Below are positions 5,009-56,700 of a stretch of DNA of 64,000 nucleotides, one piece after another. This DNA comes from Gordius sp. MW1 (lineage: Eukaryota; Nematomorpha; Gordioida; Gordea; Gordiidae), in contig OZ038529.1 in assembly GCA_964036665.1 (NCBI GenBank), positions 6,184,501-6,248,500 of the forward strand, in the 5' to 3' direction. The notes under the pieces are model-generated. The model was given only the letters and a program-made list of their open reading frames with translations. It was not told the origin of the DNA and searched no databases. The position numbers were made by a program, and so were the translations under genes. Position 1 is the stretch's first letter. Every line of letters starts with the position of its first letter.

Positions 5009-5180
5009 TAACGTTGTAAAAACAGGTGGGTTTTGTTTGGTAGACCGTTGGTTTTAGTCGACTAAACATAAGCAGACCAAACGTTTTTTGGTCTATTTTT
5101 CTTAGTCGCATAAACAGCTTATGTTTTGTCGACTAAAATCAACGGTCTACCAAACAAACCCACCTGTTTTTACAACACTA
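5009..5180. mobile_element. Short foldback MITE, hAT-like, TAGTGTTGTAAAAA termini
   Basis: A 172-bp near-palindrome. The left arm GTTGTAAAAACAGGTGGGTT, continuing through GTCGACTAAA, is repeated in reverse at the right end, leaving a loop of about 40 bp. The right terminus reads TTTTTACAACACTA. The flanks gcaataac and gaaaaaac match at 6 of 8 positions, suggesting an old 8-bp target duplication. The same terminus bounds the 4.5-kb foldback element at 25394-29925. Confidence 0.75.
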
Positions 5181-20676: not shown

Positions 20677-25299
<4,623 letters not shown>

Positions 25300-25857
25300 T
25301 TAAACGGTGGCCCGTCAACTCGCCGAAAACAATCTCGCCGAAAATAATGTCCCCCGGCTAAAAAATGTCCCCAAATTTGTGATTGGTTGATGGTAGTGTT
25401 GTAAAAAACCAAGGGTTTCTATTGGTTGCCTGCAAGCGTTGGCATTTTTTTTCACCCAACCTTTTCAGTGTTAGGTGAATTTCCTTGGGAGGGCTTTGGC
25501 GTTTGGCGTTTTCGTAAAAAACACCCAAAGCGTTTTGGGTGTTTTTTTGGGGGCACCTTTGGCGTTTAGGTTTGGGTGTATTAAAGAGCTAAAGGGTTTG
25601 GGTGGATAATATTATTAACCTTTTGGTTTGGTTTTGGTCGTTTTGGGTTGGGCATGCAAATATATCAATTTGTTTATATTGTTCATCATATTTGTGTATT
25701 TAGATTTAGGTAATGAACTTTTAATTTAAGAAAATAAAAATAAATGTATCATGACGTCACAATCTAGTAAATTCAGTAAATTATAATTAATTATTATGCA
25801 TTATAGAAGTAGGTAGTGAATTAATATGTTTTATTATAAAAAAAAATTTGTGAAGAT

Positions 25858-27090
25858 TTGCCCCCCCCCCTTATTTTTTACACTCTTTCTCACCTGGGGA
25901 GGAACGGCGGGCAGGTGGGGTGTTTGCCCCCCCCCCTATTTTTTTACCCTCTTTCTGATGCGGGGGAGAGGGGGGTGTTTTGCCCCCCCCCCTATTTTTT
26001 TACCCTCTTTCTGATGCGGGGGAAAGGGGGGGTGTTTCCCCCCCCCCCTAATTTTTTACCCTCTTTCTGATGTGGGGGAGAGGGGGGGGGCATGGGGGGT
26101 TTTTGCCCCCCCCCCCTAATTTTTTACCCTCTTTCTGATGTAGGGGAGAGGGGGGGGGGGCATAGGGGGTGTTTTGCCCCCCCCCCTCTAATTTTTTACC
26201 CTCTTTCTGGTCCGGGGGAGAGGGGGGGCATGGGGGGTGTTTTGCCCCCCCCCAATTTTTTACCCTCTTTCTGATGCGAGGGAGAGGGGGGGCAGGGGGT
26301 GTTTTGCCCCCCCCCCTAGTTTTTTACCCTCTTTTTAATGCGGGGGAGAGGGGGGGGCATGGGGGGTCTTTTGCCCCCCCCCCCCAATTTTTTACCCTCT
26401 TTCTGATGCGAGGGAGAAGGGGGGCAGGGGTTGTTTTGTTCCCCCCCCCCCTAATTTTTTACACTCTTTCTAATGCGGGGGAGGGGGGGGGGCATGGGGG
26501 TAGTTTTGCCCCCCCCCCCCAATTTTTTACCCTCTTTCTGATGTAGGGGAGAGGGGGGGCATAGGGGGTGTTTTGCCCCCCCCCCTAATTTTTTACCCTC
26601 TTTCTGGTCCGGGGGAGAGGGGGGGGGCATGGGGGGTGTTTTGCCCCCCCCTTTCAATTTTTTACCCTCTTTCTGATGCGAGGGAGAGGGGGGGCAGGGG
26701 GTGTTTTGCCCCCCCCCCTTATTTTTTACCCTCTTTCTAATGTGGGGGAGGAGGGGCACCCCCCCCCCCTTATTTTTTACCGTCTTTCTAATGTGGGGGA
26801 GAGGGGGGGGCATGGGGGGTGTTTTGCCCCCCCCCCTTTTTACCCTCTTTCTAATGCGGGGGAGAGGGGGGGGGCATGGGGGGTGTTTTGCCCCCCCCCC
26901 CAATTTTTTACCCTTTTTCTGATGCGAGGGAGAAGGGGGGCAGGGGTTGTTTTGTCCCCCCCCCCCCTAATTTTTTACACTCTTTCTAATGCGGGGGAGG
27001 GGGGGGGGCATGGGGGTAGTTTTGACCCCCCCCCCTAATTTTTTACCCTCTTTCTGATGCGGGGGAGAGGGGTGCAGGTGGGGTGTTTTC
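25858..27090 (+). repeat. C-run/G-run minisatellite, plus-oriented array
   Basis: About 18-20 units of roughly 60-70 bp: a run of 9-13 C, then 'taattttttaccctctttct', 'gatgcgggggagag', a run of 6-9 G, 'catggggggtgttttg'. Variants in the middle (gatgcg/ggtccg/aatgtg) recur in order, suggesting multi-unit duplications. The open frames here (PPPLIFYPLS-type periodic peptides) are artefacts of the repeat length. Confidence 0.95.
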
Positions 27091-28382
27091 AAAAAATAGA
27101 AAACGATTATAAAGTGAGATTTATCTGGCCATTCGAGAGCAGATTTTGAATTCAATCCTTCAATTAAAATTAATATTTTAATTCATTCTAAATTAATGAC
27201 AGCTAACAGACCCCCATCTAAATATTCCCGGCAATAGCAATTTTAATCACAAAATTTAATTTAAATATATTTTGAATTCCTCGCCTCTTGTAAAAGATAA
27301 AGACTTATTAATTATATATTATCCCTTTTATTTTATATTTAAACTATATTTTCAATATGAGAGAACGGCATCCCGCGCGACTCGACATATCACCACTCCC
27401 ATGTAGCATGTATATTGTATATGTTCATGTACTAATCCACCCTCTCTCTCCCTTCTCTCGTTGCAATGCATGCGCAACCTATCAGATTTAAGTTAAGTAC
27501 TAAACTAAATATATAAAACAATCATGGCACAACAAGGCATGGTGTGGCGTGGGCTGGCTAGGCTCTTTATTACATCATTTTACATTCATTTCTTTTTTAA
27601 CGTAACATATCAAGGTATGTAGAAGTTGCGAATCATATTATTATAAATAAAATTAATGAAAATTAAACTTTTTTTTTATTATGTCAACTACTAATTAAGT
27701 CATAAGCAATTAGAAAATTAAGTTTCTTATTAAATAATAAGCAATAATTTAAATTAAGATGCTTAACTCATTTTTGTTACTCAGAAAAGTCCTATTTTTT
27801 TATGATCCTTATAAGCATTGTAAACGCGAGGTCTAAGTCAACAGGACGTAGAGTGTTGGTGTCTTGTGAAAGCATAGTAATTAATAGCATGATATGCTTT
27901 TTGGAAATACCTTAAGTATTTTAATTAAATGCCCAGATAACTTAAATAGTAAAACTTACTTACCCATGATGGCAAATTTTTTTAAATTGGTAAAATTTCA
28001 TATTGATATTATATTTAATAATACAGCTTATTCTTAAATGAAGTTAAATTAAAAAATTTACTTCAATTGATATGGTATATTAAGACAATTGTTGACCGCA
28101 AATCTTCAAAAATATATTTTCGAATATTAGAAAATCTTTGTCATATAATAAGTCAATTTTCAAAAAAAAATATAAATTTCAATAGAAAATGTTGATTAAG
28201 ACATTTGTCACCACTGTGACCGCAAATCTTCCCAAAAATATTTTTTGTAATAGTAGAACATAAATATAATAAGTCTATTTTCAAAAAAAAATATTAATTT
28301 CAATAGAAAATGTTGATTATGAATCACCGTGACCGCAAAAATTCACAAAAATATTTTAAAAGGGTTAAAAAGGGCTTTCCGG
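27091..28382. other. Unique loop of the foldback element
   Basis: No ORF of interest. It contains a diverged direct repeat at about 28080-28340, two copies of 'gaccgcaaatcttc' with 'tcaatagaaaatgttgatta'. Confidence 0.6.
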
Positions 28383-29455
28383 TCCCCCCCCCCCCCGCGT
28401 GAGAAAGAGAGTAAAAAATAAGAAGAGGGACAATTCACCCCCCCCCTCTCCCCCACATCAGAAAGAGGGTAAAAAATTAGGCGGGGGGGGGGGGGGCAAA
28501 ACACCCCCTTGCCCCCCCCTCTCCCTCGCATCAGAAAGAGGGTAAAAAATTAGGGGGGGGGGGCAAAACACCCCCCATGCCCCCCTCTCCCTCACATCAG
28601 AAAGAGGGTAAAAATGGGGGGGGGGGGGCAAAACACCCCCCATGCCTCCCTCTCCCCCGCATTAAAAGAGGGTAAAAAATTAGGGGGGGGGGAGCAAAAC
28701 ACCCCCCATGCCCCCCTCTCCCCCGCATTTGAAAGAGGATAAAAAATTCGGGGGGGGGGCAAAACACCCCTTGCCCCCCCCTCTCCCTCGCATCAGAAAG
28801 AGGGTAAAAAACATGCCCCCCCTCTCCCCCGGATCAGAAAGAGGGTAAAAAATTAGGGGGGGGGGGGCATAACACCCCCCATGCCGCCCTCTCCCCCGCA
28901 TTAAAAAGAGGGTTAAAAACTAGGAAGGGGGGCAAAACACCCCCCATGCCCCCCTCTCCCCCGCATTAGAAAGAGGATAAAAAATTAGGGGGGGGGGCAA
29001 AACACCCCCCATGCCCCCCTCTCCCCCGCATCAGAAAGAGGGTAAAAAATTGGGGGGGGGGGCAAAACACCCCCCATGCCCCCCCTCTCCCCCGGACCAG
29101 AAAGAGGGTAAAAAATTGGGGGTGGGGCAAAACACCCCCTATGCCCCCCTCTCCCCCACATCAGAAAGAGGGTAAAAAATTAGGGGGGGGCAAAATACCC
29201 CCCCCCCCCCCATGCCCCCTCTCCCCCACATCAGAAAGAGGGTAAAAAGTTAGGGGGGGGGCAAAACACCCCCCATGCCCCCCCCTCTCCCCCACATCAG
29301 AAAGAGGGTAAAAAATTAGGGGGGGGGGCAAAACACCCCCCTTTCCCCCGCATCAGAAAGAGGGTAAAAAAATAGGGGGGGGGCAAACACCCCACCTGTC
29401 CGCCGTTCCTCCCCAGGTGAGAAAGAGGGTAAAAAATAAGAGGGGGGCAAATCTT
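28383..29455 (-). repeat. C-run/G-run minisatellite, minus-oriented array
   Basis: The same unit as at 25858-27090 in reverse orientation (agaaagagggtaaaaaatta, G run, caaaacaccccccatg, C run, 'tctcccccgcatc'), about 16-17 copies. It forms the second half of the inverted repeat. Confidence 0.95.
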
Positions 29456-30030
29456 CACAAATTTTTTTTTATAATAAAACATATTAATTCACTACCTACT
29501 TCTATAATGCATAATAATTAATTATAATTTACTGAATTTACTAGATTGTGACGTCATGATACATTTATTTTTATTTTCTTAAATTAAAAGTTCATTACCT
29601 AAATCTAAATACACAAATATGATGAACAATATAAACAAATTGATATATTTGCATGCCCAACCCAAAACGACCAAAACCAAACCAAAAGGTTAATAATATT
29701 ATCCACCCAAACCCTTTAGCTCTTTAATACACCCAAACCTAAACGCCAAAGGTGCCCCCAAAAAAAACACCCAAAACGCTTTGGGTGTTTTTTACGAAAA
29801 CGCCAAACGCCAAAGCCCTCCCAAGAAAATTCACCTAACACTGAAAAGGTTGGGTGAAAAATAACGCCAACAACTACGCTTAGCAATACGCTGGGAAAAA
29901 CCAGCCAGCCGTTTTTACAACACTAGTTGATGGGTTAGGGTTAATAAGCTTGGGGACCTTTTTTTAGCTGGGGGACATTATTTTTCGGCGAGATGGTTTT
30001 CGGCGAGTTGATAGGGCACCACATTTAAAC

Positions 30031-31904: not shown

Positions 31905-32739
31905 TGTATGACATCCTTTAAAAATTTTATTACAAACTAGGATTTATAAAAATAGTTGCTACAAGATGCCTCACGTAATGCAAAATATAATTTCTACGTG
32001 CTTATTGAACAACTCAGTGTGCATGCTCGCGTCTGGAGTTGAAGCTAGTGAGCAATTTAACACCTCTTTTATTGACATTTGACATAAGGCGATGTTTTAA
32101 AAAAATTATGAGGATTTATTGCTATGATTATGACATAATACAAACAAGTATTAAATGAATTTAGCAAATAAAAGCGTATATTATTGAAAGATTGTCGTCA
32201 CTATCAGCAGTAGGAGACCAAGGACGATATCTATTTTAAAAATAGAGGCTAAAGTTAATGCTTTTTTAATCGGTAATTTAAGTATTATCCTTGTATTTTT
32301 ATTGCCAACCTAAGCACCTTGTATATTAATCTAAAAATATCGTAAAAAACACTTATTTTTAAAATAAACCATAACAAAATCCTTTTAAATTCGTATAGCT
32401 TATATATACTTCAAAAAATAATAACTTTCTGAGATCTTATTAATTTGATAAAATTAAGGGTTAATTATATAAATTTAGAAATGTTTGATATTGCTGGCCC
32501 TATTGATCTCCTAAACAGCTTTTGACATACAAAAATAACTTTTTATATTCGCTTTCAAAATACATATAAAGTCCTTTTGACTCTAACGATTCAAGAACTT
32601 TATAATAAAAAGAAAAGTGCAACTTTTCGGTCTCATAAGTTAAATGGTATTAAAACCCGCTTTGAATTTCGAAAAGAAAAATTTGTTATATATTAATAAA
32701 CATATGATCAAGAACTGTCAATCCATTTATCTGAATATT

Positions 32740-33236
32740 GTTGTATAAAAACGGTGAAATATGAATGATAATGTGAGTAGAGGGAAATGGAACGCGATAT
32801 TTAGGACACTTATGGTCCATCTTCAGGAAAAAAAAATTAAAAAAGGAGAAGATGAAGTCTCGAAAAATAAAAATGAATTAAAGTGAGTATAAAAACGATG
32901 ATATAGATATAAAAAAAAATTTATTTGCTTTTGCACGTCGTCGTAGATCCTCTTATAATTTCTGCCAACCGTTTGACTGTTTATAAAGTAAAATTTTATA
33001 TTGGAATGTTTATTTCTCGCTATAACCAGTTTTTTTTAATTTTTTTTATATCTATATCATCGTTTTTATAGTCACTTTACTTCATTTTTATTTTTTGAGA
33101 CTTCATCTTCACCTATTTTTTTATTTATTTTTTCCCCTGAAGATGGACCATAAGTGTCCGAAATATCGCGTTCCATTTCCCTCTACTCACATTATCAATC
33201 CTATTTCACCGTTTTTATACAACAATATTAAAAAAC
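32740..33236. mobile_element. Inverted pair of terminal repeats, Penelope-like, with hammerhead-like core
   Basis: Two arms of roughly 190 bp (about 32740-32925 and 33030-33236) are reverse complements around a loop of about 100 bp. The arms share 'cacttatggtccatcttcag', 'gagtagagggaaatggaacg' and 'aaaacgatgatatagatata'. The right arm contains CTGAAGA - GGAC - loop - GTCC - GAAA (33137-33163), the layout of a minimal hammerhead ribozyme (CUGANGA, stem II, GAAA) as found in Penelope-like retroelement terminal repeats. In the left arm GAAA has become TAAA. No reverse transcriptase is nearby. Confidence 0.55.
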
Positions 33237-34286
33237 ATATACATACGATAGTAACCTCACTAAAACGACCCTTTCATCAGGCACTATATAAATTATGTTC
33301 ATCATGTAATTGTCATTTAATTGGTAATAGCTAACTTACATCTTCACTTAATTTATACCCCGAAGGAATTCTACCCACGATACTAGGCATGCCTTCCAAT
33401 CGATATAAAAGGTGATCAATTTGATCGATTTAATCATTAAAAAACAACAAATTCGACAAACCACGGTAAATTGGGTTAAATAAATTACTACAAATAACGA
33501 GAAGATAAACATCAATCAACCGTGTTTGTGTTGTGTGTGTAATAAATTGCAGAGAGGTGCAACCGGTTATAATGGGCTACAATATAATTTAATCGCAATG
33601 TACTCATTTAGTTATATATTTAAGCTGCGCTTTTAAATTTCAACGTTCGGTAGCGGACCTTAATAGTATTATTTGAAATTTGTGGAGAGGTAGTAGGCAC
33701 TAAGTCTAAATCCATTAAAATATAATAACAGGGAAGGACAGGTTGCTAGAAAATTACTAAATTCCACAATTTTTTAAACTTAATAAAATTAAAATCAGTT
33801 ATTTGCCAGGTATAACACACTTGTCGAGTTAAAGCTTGCAAACATCATAATAAAAAGAAAAGGCAAAATTAGCTTTTCACAAATAATAAAAACTCACCCA
33901 TAACGTTTAAATTTTTTGAAAAATTATATGGTTGTTCGCCTCCCACTAGGGCAAAATTTTAATATAGTTCAAGACGTGATAGATTTTGTTTGAGGGAGTG
34001 ATAGGGTTTGATTTAAGAATATTTTAGGTTAATTTTTTATAAGTATAATTCGTTCCATAAAAATAAGCGCTTATAGTAAATAGTATGAATTGACTATTTT
34101 ATATGTTGAAAAAAGGAGCGATCTATGTAGACGTTGAGATTTAAACTAAAGGTCACGATTAAAATCACAATGTCTGTGTGTGTTACCTTTAGGTAACTTC
34201 TCGTTTCGCCATGGAAAAATTAAAAAAATTGCAGCATTTCGTTACTTTCTTGACTAAAATCACAAAATTTTGAGTGGCGTATTGTT
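33237..34286. other. Intergenic, no gene recognised
   Basis: AT-rich, no coding similarity. It includes the 3' flank of the macrodomain gene that ends at 34287. Confidence 0.5.
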
Positions 34287-48490: not shown

Positions 48491-49830
48491 TTAGTTATCC
48501 TCTACACTTCCCCCCTTTTCACAAAGATAATATTTCAGGTAGCTTGGGGCCTGTCGTATCCGGGGCAGGTATCTAACCTCGGGCGGGGGCTTGTTAAGCT
48601 CCAGGTCCATGGGAAGGGCATTGTGTTCACCCGCTTCTGTAGAGGCATTGCCATTGGGAATCATTGGCAGGGAACCTTGACTGGACGCCGTTGGCAAGGG
48701 GCTTGCATCTATTGGCTCATTTGCAATGGGACTAGATCGCGCGAGCATATCCCGGTTCGGCCATCCATTTTCATGTCCAACCATTCTCCAGTCCAATATT
48801 CTCCTTGGTCTCAACTGATCCAAATTACCGATGATGATTTTCCCTAGGGTCCTAACTATGTAGGAGCGACAACCAAACTTGGCTGTTATAGATCCCTCTA
48901 CCCATTTGCTGGGCCCCAAAAACATACGCACCCACACCTTGTCTCCTACGCCGAACGTGCGCGACTTTTTCCTCTCCGTCCAATGTTGAGGCTCGTTTTC
49001 CCGTAACAACTCCCACTCGGTTCTAATTTTCCGCCTTAATATTCCTTCTTCAGGAGTTATCCCAGTCGCTGGGTGGATAGTCGCCCTGCAATTTTCCAGG
49101 AATAAGCTTAAACCAATTTCGGAATTGTTGCACATCACCGCCTTTTTTACTCCGCACGTACCTTTCCGCCAATCCATTTGACGCGGGGTGATAAGGTGCT
49201 GACCAACCTTGTTTTATCCCCCTACGCCTACAAAATCCTCGAATCTCCTGGCTTCTAAACTGCGGACGGTTATCCGATGTAAGGAATGGTGGGCTACCGA
49301 ACCTGGCGAACATCTTCGCCAGCTTTGTGATTATGGTTGAGGTTGACGTAACTTCTACTTTGAAAACCTCCAACCATTTTGTTCCATTATCCACCAAGAC
49401 AAAATACGACTTGCCGCACCGGCCCAAACAAATCCACGTGTACCTGGATCCAAGGCCTAAAGTTTTGTTCACCTTTGACCAACGGCGCCCTTTTTGGTGC
49501 TGCGGCCGTGTGGTTGCATGCCCTGCAACTTTTCGCTAAGTCTTCGATATCCTGAATCAGTGTTAGCCACCATACGTATTTAGCTGCCACTTGCTGCATT
49601 CGCTTAACGCCCACGTGGCCCTTGTGTAATCGTTGTAGCACCGCGTACCTTAAATCTGGCTGGAATGAGGACCGTCGTCCCTCGTAGAAAATATCATTGG
49701 ACTCGTGTAACTTCGGCAGGTACCTTTCGTAGAGGCGCATAGTAACCGCGACTACTGTGCCATTTTGCGTCCCCTTTATCCATTCTTTGAGATGCCGTAA
49801 CGACTCGTCGCTTTTCTCGCTCTGTTCCAA
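48491..49830 (-). pseudogene. Gypsy integrase (pol 3' end), frameshifted
   Basis: Three overlapping minus-strand frames together contain a full integrase. First comes the H2C2 zinc-binding module (LHKGHVGVKRMQQVAAKYVW, then SCRACNHTAAAPKRAPL), then the core with first Asp in WIQVHVDLFGPV. The second Asp is in FLTSDNRPQFRSQEIRGF, and the catalytic Glu in YHPASNGLAERYVR. A C-terminal region with FGVGDKVWVRMFLGPSKW follows, the GPY/F-like end. The D,D,E triad is thus present but spread over shifted frames (breaks near 49430 and 49110), so no functional protein is made. Confidence 0.85.
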
Positions 49831-53287: not shown

Positions 53288-53403
53288 GAATCTCACGATG
53301 TGGCTTGGATCATGGTTGAGGCAGCACAATCGTCACAAAAAAGCAGCATAAAATTAGGTTCGTATTTTATCGATTACCTAGCTTATCGTTTGCATATTGT
53401 TAC

Positions 53404-53823
53404 ATGGCATTTGTGCAAGAATTTAGAAATTTTCTAGCGAAAGATAAATTAAGTAAGTGTAATTATATAAGCTGTACATATTTTTTAGAATTTACGAAGT
53501 CAGCAAGAAATGGTCAGGCGTTGACTTATGGCCGATACTCCTATACCAAAGCAAAGATAGGAAAAAACCAACAAATATATTATAGGTGTCGAAAAACTAA
53601 ATGTAATGGGAAAGGGATTCTTCAACAAGAGAATTTTGATATAACTAAAGAGCATACTTGTGATGTATCTTCAGCATTGCCTTCCTCAAGTAACCTTTGT
53701 AAATCAAAAGATCTTATTAATCATTCAGGTTCCAGCTCAAAAAATGATTGTAGTGATATTACATCTATAGATCAAGCAAACCCCAACAAGCAGCAGAGTA
53801 TTTATTTTTACAAAATGTTATAA
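53404..53823 (+). pseudogene. FLYWCH zinc-finger N-terminus of a MULE transposase
   Basis: An open frame of 139 residues contains one FLYWCH finger (residues about 28-86): F-x-K-S-A-R-N-G-QALTYGRYSYTKAK, then YYRCRKTKCNGKG and KEHTCD. This supplies the aromatic Y-x-Y/W core and the C-x4-C ... H-x-C ligands (last ligand Cys instead of the usual His). Such fingers sit at the N-terminus of MULE transposases, where they bind the element ends. The frame ends in a Ser/Asn-rich linker and stops, without the catalytic domain. The remaining C-terminal part lies at 53885-54209. Confidence 0.75.
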
Positions 53824-54869: not shown

Positions 54870-56700
54870 GGCCTAGGCTATGTATTCTCGATTCAGAGTG
54901 ATAAATAACAAAATGTAAAACGCATTTCTTAAACGTTCCATTCCCGAGCGCAATCATCGCGTTCGTTAATTTGTGTGTTATTGTTTACAAATTTTTTAAA
55001 TTCGCCATTTTTGCTTGTTCTAATCCATATGGTAACAACAACATTTTGTGGCAATATAAAGGTATGATAAATAGATATATTAACTATTTTCCTAGATAAA
55101 TAATTTTGAATTTTTAATCTTTTCAAACAAGATTTGTTCATTAATTTAACATTTTGTGGCAATAAAAAGGTATGATAAATAGGTATATTAACTATTTTCC
55201 TAGATAAATAATTTTGAATTATTTTCTTAGATCAGTTGCAAAAGAGGGGGGAAAAATACATCAACCATTCAAAGGTTCAACATATTTGTCTCATTTACTA
55301 AAACATCAATCAATAGTTGATTCAAATACATCAACCATTCAAATGTTCAACATATTTGTCTCATTTAATAAAACATCAATAAATAGTTGATTAACCATTG
55401 TATTTAAGAATTTATAACATATATCTAATAGGTTTTTTTAATGAGGTTGGAAACCTTATTTGTTATCCGTGTAATACAATAAACCTTGTGTTGTTGCTTA
55501 TATTATTGTTGTTAGTGTTTCAACATATTAATACTATTTGTGAGTCAGGGAGAGTTACAATTATTAATTGCTATGCAATTTATATTGATAAGAATGACCA
55601 TTTAAGTATTTTATCAAATTTATAATATGATTTTCATTAGAAATCATTAGTATAACAATTTACAATTTTGCATACATATTCTGACAAATCCTTAAATATT
55701 AGTTTGTAAAAATCTGAATACATTTATACATATTTCATTAAGAGTCACATAATATAAGTGCTGTTTTCTTATTTTAAGAGTTAATTGGTAGTATTAGAAT
55801 TCCTGTATGTTCTAAAAGTGCAAAAGCTTTGTGCATATGGTTACCAACAATTTATTAATTCTATTTTCAAAACTTATTTTTTAAATGTTATAATCTAAAA
55901 GTTACTCAAGATAGTTACCAACAATCTTCTATTTCATTTTTTATAAAAGGCACATATAAAAATGTCAAAAGCATTTTCAATATTTTTTACCTGATGTCAT
56001 AACCTAAAAGTTACTCAAGATAGTTACCAACAATCTTCTATTTCATTTTTTATAAAATGCACGTATAAAAATGTCAAAAGCATTTTCAAATCTAATTTTT
56101 TATAACATGCTATCTTAAAAAATACAGTTTATTTAAATTTGAGCCAAATTCAGCAAACCTTTTAGGAAATTTATTGAATCTCTAAAAAAACAACACTCAA
56201 ATATGTCAGCTGCAGTTTATTATTTTTAAACAATAAGAAACAATGGTGAATCAACTATTGATTGATGTTTTAGTAAATAAGACAAATATGTTGAACATTT
56301 GAATGGTTGATGTATTTTTCCCACCTCTTTTGCAACTGATCTAAGAAAATAATTAAAAATTATTTATCTAGGAAAATAGTTAATATATCAATTTATCATA
56401 CCTTTTTATTGCCACAAAATGTTGAATAAATGAACAAATCTTGTTTGAAAAGATTAAAAATTCAAAATTATTTATCTAGGAAAATAGTTAATATATCTAT
56501 TTATCACACCTTTCTTTTCCCACAAAATGTTGTTGTTACCATATATATTAGAACAAGCAAAAATGGCGAATTTAAAAAAATGTAAACAATAACACACAAA
56601 TTAACGAACGCGATGATTGCGCTCGGGAATGGAACGTTTAAGAAATGCGTTTTACGTTTTGTTATTTATCACTCTGAATCGAGAATACATAGCCTAGGCC
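54870..56700. mobile_element. 1.83-kb MULE-like element with ~500-bp inverted repeats
   Basis: Termini GGCCTAGGCTATGTATTCTC and its reverse complement, flanked by a perfect 9-bp duplication CGGCCAAAT (54861-54869, 56701-56709). The inverted arms extend about 500 bp on each side (54870-55395, 56205-56700) and contain an internal direct repeat, 'ttgtggcaat.aaaaggtatg' twice per arm. The middle has a non-coding tandem pair (55905-56100). No transposase was seen. The 9-bp duplication fits Mutator-like elements. It lies just outside the right end of the FLYWCH element. Confidence 0.9.

Follow-up and report, generated by a model that had tools for sequence, protein, structure and literature searches.

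A dispersed foldback family in Gordius

The stretch considered here (the window) comprises 64,000 nucleotides of contig OZ038529.1 of Gordius sp. MW1 (assembly GCA_964036665.1, positions 6,184,501 to 6,248,500), and the question that it raises is what kind of mobile element occupies positions 25394-29925, and how its tips can differ when the sequence between them is mirror-imaged. This interval is a single complete 4532-bp copy of a dispersed non-coding transposon family. The element is likely to be a non-autonomous cut-and-paste transposon whose tips are unlike, whose interior has become an inverted repeat and which a hAT transposase moves in trans. The original prediction had placed the termini TAGTGTTGTAAAAA / TTTTTACAACACTA at the ends of the interval with GTTGATGG on either side, and both were borne out at these coordinates, as were the opposed tandem arrays (units mostly 56-75 bp) around a central spacer of ~1.27 kb (1274 bp). 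The predicted near-identical arms are also present, but start only behind the 14-bp tip and a block that is unlike at the two ends (30 bp at the left, 40 bp at the right), running inward from 25438 and 29871. Thus, the long inverted arms, internal tandem repeats and middle domain of the foldback structural class are all found, with the difference from the usual description of the class that the inverted repeat is not continuous to the tip. Open frames of at least 80 aa within the element are confined to the arrays. No Rfam match at the gathering score and no tRNA was found in the window.

Copies of the element are widespread. The left arm was found nearly full length, at 96-100% identity, in at least 40 genomic places (best 40 of 610 candidates scored), and the spacer in at least 40 places at 92-100% identity, nearly full length in 37 of the 40 and partial in three (40 of 643 candidates scored). 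Twenty loci were fetched; in one, L032, the left end was absent from the fetched stretch and the locus was left out of the duplication count. All of the 19 copies with both ends in reach carried a perfect 8-bp target duplication, so that further copies with the same termini and such duplications, which the prediction had proposed searching for, were found at 19 of 19 testable loci. This is a real mobile foldback family. The 19 copies are 3771-5598 bp long; in the 11 whose inner boundaries were found by script, the arrays as assembled measure 706-1601 bp on the left and 785-1484 bp on the right. Movement looks recent because the spacers of four copies, the window copy included, are 100% identical (as rounded), which suggests that the family has recently been mobile.

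We also searched for the empty site of the window copy, using as a 150-bp query its flanks joined with one duplication. The site was uninterrupted at all 40 places scored (609 candidates), with 149-151 bp aligned at 97-99% identity. The empty site is therefore within a repeat, an older short inverted-repeat element that hosts the insertion (Table 1) and is itself flanked on both sides, as judged by eye, by ATTTAAAC (25298-25305 and 30023-30030).

Integration of the hAT type

With the duplications oriented by element end, left first, 24 of the 38 bases at the two preferred sites were T (position 2) or A (position 7), against an expected fraction of 0.34 (p 3e-4), and 32 of the 38 outermost bases were G or C (p 2e-11, a post hoc observation). 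An nTnnnnAn target preference is given for Hermes in the account of PMC10368747, and PMC3942097 describes hAT elements in the portion consulted as having 8-bp duplications and short terminal repeats of 10-25 bp. The family examined here combines an 8-bp duplication (19/19), a leaning to nTnnnnAn and a 14-bp terminal repeat; together, duplication length, T2/A7 preference and short terminal repeat argue for a hAT transposase acting in trans. We conclude that integration of the hAT type is well supported. The original prediction of a separate foldback family with hAT-like integration is likewise supported, by 19 of 19 perfect 8-bp duplications that lean to nTnnnnAn.

Foldbacks have mostly been assigned to Mutator, with exceptions, and independent origins from different transposon lineages have been suggested, according to the sections of PMC4079207 that deal with them. 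A Mutator-like element (MULE) would therefore be in keeping with most described foldbacks, and Muta1 is a MULE that has been named a type-2 foldback, with duplications of 8 or 9 bp (PMC5225508, in the part describing it). A duplication of 8 bp alone would be compatible with a MULE. However, the duplications of Mutator-like foldbacks measure 9-10 bp, with 8-10 bp in Tetris and 8 or 9 bp in Muta1, whereas they are of 8 bp in 19/19 copies here, none longer, and lean to nTnnnnAn; moreover, the terminal repeat proper is of 14 bp. On these features of the duplications and tips, we consider a MULE origin improbable.

We give a comparably low probability to a different superfamily that also makes 8-bp duplications, P for example, as in the case of Galileo. 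PMC3688188 assigns Galileo to the P superfamily and describes its ends as foldback-like, 0.5-1.2 kb long and containing tandem repeats. The T2/A7 preference, however, fits hAT. So does the TAGTG tip, which agrees with what we take to be the hAT tip consensus.

The two ends are unlike and pair left with right

In an alignment of the 38 arms of the 19 copies, the left and right majorities differ at 33 columns, and 31 of these fall in columns 14-53. Within columns 14-53, 18-19 of the 19 copies agree on each side, with the exception of a single column at which the right ends are divided. From column 100 inward, in contrast, 16 of the 19 copies have arms that are 98.4-100% identical to each other. 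Unlike tips around a mirror-imaged interior are what a transposase that needs unlike ends would lead one to expect. Hermes has such a requirement: with two left ends (LE/LE) little activity is left, and with two right ends (RE/RE) none, as the experiments given in PMC10368747 have it. By analogy, the unlike blocks of the foldback may reflect a Hermes-like end requirement.

The terminal 14-mer occurs far beyond chance, 2338 + 2353 times (4691) in the 211.8-Mb genome (12 contigs), against 16 + 15 for the reversed control. Genome-wide, and allowing two mismatches, we found 90 + 85 = 175 left-type and 139 + 143 = 282 right-type ends, with a control of 0 in both cases. Clusters of ends were built from exact matches (100 listed per end type) on contigs C1-C4, and the following counts are among these matches. 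The 102 clusters comprise 48 convergent left/right pairs, which span 229 bp to 9.9 kb, one right/right pair, 34 single right ends, 13 single left ends and six composites holding three or four ends. Of the 49 clusters with two ends, then, 48 are convergent left/right, one is right/right in the same direction and none is left/left. Single ends may have partners with mismatches, and one single right end (L067) leads into a diverged foldback arm and array. Outside the window, right-type ends with alternating orientation recur at a period of ~35-37 kb (G000:C2:5564909-5659105), which suggests a tandem segmental duplication. Four TTAGG repeats in a row stand at just 12 places in the genome.

The recurrence of the plan also bears on whether the inverted arrangement could have arisen in assembly or by one local rearrangement, as the difficulty of assembling C/G-run arrays in general might suggest. 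This explanation is refuted for the family, since the plan recurs at many places (19 insertion sites, each with its own duplication; the 48 convergent pairs; and 9 of 9 clusters with both unit orientations, which run + then - among 100 listed places of the array unit, judged by eye) and an empty site exists, the array lengths of single copies being those of the assembly. The same 100 places include one further cluster with - units only and one with + units only, at the end of the listing.

The tips are not peculiar to the foldback. Besides the thousands of 14-mers, 17-mers made of the tip and CGG, as in the right end, occur 2850 times genome-wide, and short elements with such tips are found near window positions 5009-5180 and in L057; the tips of the foldback thus recur in a great many other short elements. 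L057, a 3.0-kb end pair on C1, was rejected as one element, being two separate short ones. The element at 5009-5180 is a 172-bp palindrome whose ends have GTTGTAAAAAC in common with the right end of the foldback; its flanking 8-mers, GCAATAAC and GAAAAAAC, are not alike. A further short inverted-repeat element at 32725-33238 has TATTGTTGTATAAA ends that resemble the foldback tips, and arms of 120 nt at 89%.

Possible exchange between the arms and a proposed mechanism

Among the three subfamilies (18 copies, L027 omitted) 22 arm columns vary; 13 of them changed alike in both arms and none is arm-specific throughout. This favours some exchange between the arms, although the events are few. When whole arms were placed in a tree, those of the left side grouped together, as the end-specific blocks lead one to expect, so that the tree is no demonstration of exchange.

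We propose that a hAT-superfamily transposase, supplied in trans, would mobilise the non-autonomous element by recognising the 14-bp terminal repeat together with two unlike subterminal blocks, one of the left and one of the right type. Insertion by this enzyme would generate the 8-bp duplications, and a requirement for unlike ends would act on the tips. The sequence inside the tips would have become a long inverted repeat, whose arms probably stay near-alike through arm-to-arm conversion or template switching, while the minisatellite in each arm may lengthen and shorten by slippage and unequal exchange.

A candidate source of transposase

The genome is rich in hAT genes: with the PF05699 profile, all 150 scored candidates (of 3413) were above the cut-off. 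Of the best 150 of 237 candidates for PF04937 (DUF659), a domain that we take to mark hAT-like transposases, 24 scored 110.0-111.1 bits, 17 of them exactly 110.2, and many of these 24 sit in open frames of 612-644 aa. The DUF659 family looks young and possibly active, and may be regarded as a candidate transposase source. On C1, DUF659 copies with a long open frame begin at 5.9 Mb; the listed matches of the 17-mer end reach C1:3.6 Mb.

Several observations weigh against the proposed hAT-driven foldback or against parts of the proposal. Duplications of 8 bp are also found in other superfamilies. The terminus (allowing two mismatches) was found in none of 26 sampled hAT 3' regions (18 with 1.2 kb and 8 with 0.6 kb), and when the 150 best hAT matches (3413 candidates) were compared with 140 ends among the matches listed, 100 of them left and 40 right, no hAT match was 12 kb or less from an end. 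As regards the arms, those of L024 (96.3%), L035 (96.8%) and L027 (58.9%, with one arm ~190 bp longer) are less alike; 9 of the 22 subfamily-variable columns are discordant, and 9 of the 13 concordant ones form one indel, so that the case for arm exchange comes to ~4-5 independent changes. As regards the ends, neighbouring convergent right ends occur in three of the six composite clusters, and LE/LE Hermes was not rescued, in the experiments given in PMC10368747, when only the first 50 bp were made asymmetric again. The requirement of Hermes thus extends further in, and a short unlike block need not suffice.

The minisatellite arrays: pairing, inheritance and possible roles

Across the genome, a 21-mer of the array unit that includes the TTTTTTACCCTCTTTCT core was matched 1894 + 1953 times (one mismatch allowed; control 0). 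According to the original prediction, the paired sides of the element could extrude as a hairpin over more than 1.5 kb each. The halves (1697 and 1561 bp) do align, with 1423 matches, 79 mismatches and 254 gap columns, but the array portion scarcely exceeds shuffled units: the left and right arrays alone gave 969 matches, against 944-950 in five shuffles of the right units. Scored as DNA hairpins, the palindrome within the arm is unusual (z -3.85; spacer control z -0.22), and single array units are not (z -1.61 and -0.36). G-quadruplex potential on both strands had also been predicted. Motifs do occur on both strands overall, but each array has them mainly on a single strand: the left array holds 12 on + and none on -, the right array 1 on + and 5 on -, and the window outside the arrays 4 on either strand.

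Between the window copy and L020, the left arrays correspond over almost their whole length (1205 matches of 1230). Between subfamilies little is gained: the left array of L030 gave 1093 matches with the left array of the window copy and 1038 with its own right array. These alignments within and between copies suggest that the arrays are inherited with the element and, unlike the arms, are not kept in step across the hairpin.

A sibling family, L068 (one end, one copy), has the right end of the foldback, diverged arms and a different unit of ~66 bp; among its relatives are opposed arms (C3:2103339-2105275) and an array that extends over a long stretch of C8, between 21999661 and 22002282. We noticed post hoc that GTAAAAA, a 7-bp word of the terminal repeat, is present in the units of both minisatellites. 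By chance it arose in 373 and 2850 of 20000 shuffles of the respective units (2% and 14%) and was present in 45 of 900 background tiles (5%), so that its occurrence in both is suggestive only. No 10-mer from the first 110 bp of either end was found in the arrays. That a piece of the hAT terminal repeat recurs in the tandem units of two sibling families led us to consider that the opposed arrays could be docking arrays for the transposase, the foldback plan having evolved to offer many binding sites at both ends, with the short unlike tip blocks keeping left and right identity. We regard this as doubtful; were it true, the family would be a natural test of end asymmetry.

We are somewhat more inclined to think that the arrays are inert passengers and that the tips alone matter for movement, which is compatible with any of the origins considered above. 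The 229-bp copy consists of just 95 bp of right end and 134 bp of left end, with flanks that match at 7 of 8 bases, although its middle may have gone after insertion. The 14-mer is common to thousands of ends, some of which are paired at ~140-200 bp among the matches listed; against passengers stands the presence of the tip word in both minisatellites.

Features of the window

The coordinates of the foldback and its host are collected in Table 1. Exon-like minus-strand frames of an NDUFS2 (complex I 49-kDa) homologue occupy 23996-24617, and the foldback is upstream of them; the best match of an 81-aa frame is Complex I-49kD 8ba0_D (E 9.5e-35). A second long inverted repeat, with arms of ~450 bp that are 96-97% complementary and 922 bp between the longer pair, occupies 54870-56700. 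The window also holds a retroelement-like integrase frame on the minus strand at 48491-49535 (rve, E 1.6e-11, in the frame 49050-49535) and an open frame with a FLYWCH zinc finger at 53320-53823 (E 2.1e-5).

Table 1. Parts of the foldback copy and the element in which it is inserted (positions are those of the window).
Feature	Position	Strand	Remarks
Left target-site duplication	25386-25393	.	GTTGATGG
Left terminal inverted repeat	25394-25407	+	TAGTGTTGTAAAAA
Left-specific subterminal block	25408-25437	+	30 bp; differs from right end
Left arm	25438-25860	+	Inverted copy of right arm; hairpin inside at ~25516-25547
Left minisatellite array	25861-27090	+	1230 bp; units mostly 56-75 bp, with C-run, TTTTTTACCCTCTTTCT core and G-runs
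AT-rich spacer	27091-28364	.	Without open frame of at least 80 aa
Right minisatellite array	28365-29447	-	1083 bp; left-array unit in reverse orientation
Right arm	29448-29871	-	
Right-specific subterminal block	29872-29911	-	40 bp; differs from left end
Right terminal inverted repeat	29912-29925	-	14 bp
Right target-site duplication	29926-29933	.	GTTGATGG
Older short inverted-repeat element, host of the insertion	25306-30022 (25306-25393 + 29934-30022)	.	At least 40 near-identical copies

Comparison with known foldbacks

Drosophila FB and sea urchin TU foldbacks, which we compared by description only, have long inverted ends and internal tandem repeats. Their duplications are of 9 bp (FB) and 8 bp (TU), and TU may be a near relative in kind. 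We found no hAT foldback in the open-access literature, a search that left Repbase, Dfam and most subscription papers outside, and four tip words searched in literature text matched solely in papers on unrelated subjects. As far as the open-access literature goes, limited evidence suggests that this separate foldback family is possibly undescribed. It is a high-copy family of very similar copies in which the tips are kept unlike and the interior is mirror-imaged. Given the well over a hundred copies that a single genome holds, array growth and arm exchange could be measured, and one could test what part the tandem repeats play in the movement of foldbacks.

Hermes (hAT) resembles the family in its 8-bp duplications with nTnnnnAn, short terminal repeats and dissimilar ends, and differs in that it encodes its own transposase; long inverted arms are not part of its description in the sections of PMC10368747 consulted. 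Muta1, a MULE of Aedes aegypti, has terminal repeats and subterminal tandem repeats, as befits its naming as a type-2 foldback, but encodes a MULE transposase and has 145-bp terminal repeats and duplications of 8 or 9 bp (PMC5225508, in the part describing it). With Galileo, of the P superfamily, the likeness lies in long inverted ends with tandem repeats and in a between-species conservation that is limited to ~40 bp at the tips; it differs in its P-type transposase and THAP sites, and was compared by description only (PMC3688188, within the part consulted).

The closest described plan that we encountered is that of Tetris of D. virilis, which the sections of PMC4079207 devoted to it present as non-coding, with an outer flanking domain and a tandem-repeat domain in each arm. 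Tetris also has its ends in common with a miniature inverted-repeat transposable element, and its autonomous partner was not found in that account. It differs in duplications of 8-10 bp, units of ~220 bp, three complete copies and assignment to Mutator (PMC4079207, same sections), whereas the foldback described here has duplications of 8 bp in 19/19 copies, C/G-run units mostly of 56-75 bp and 175 left-type ends.

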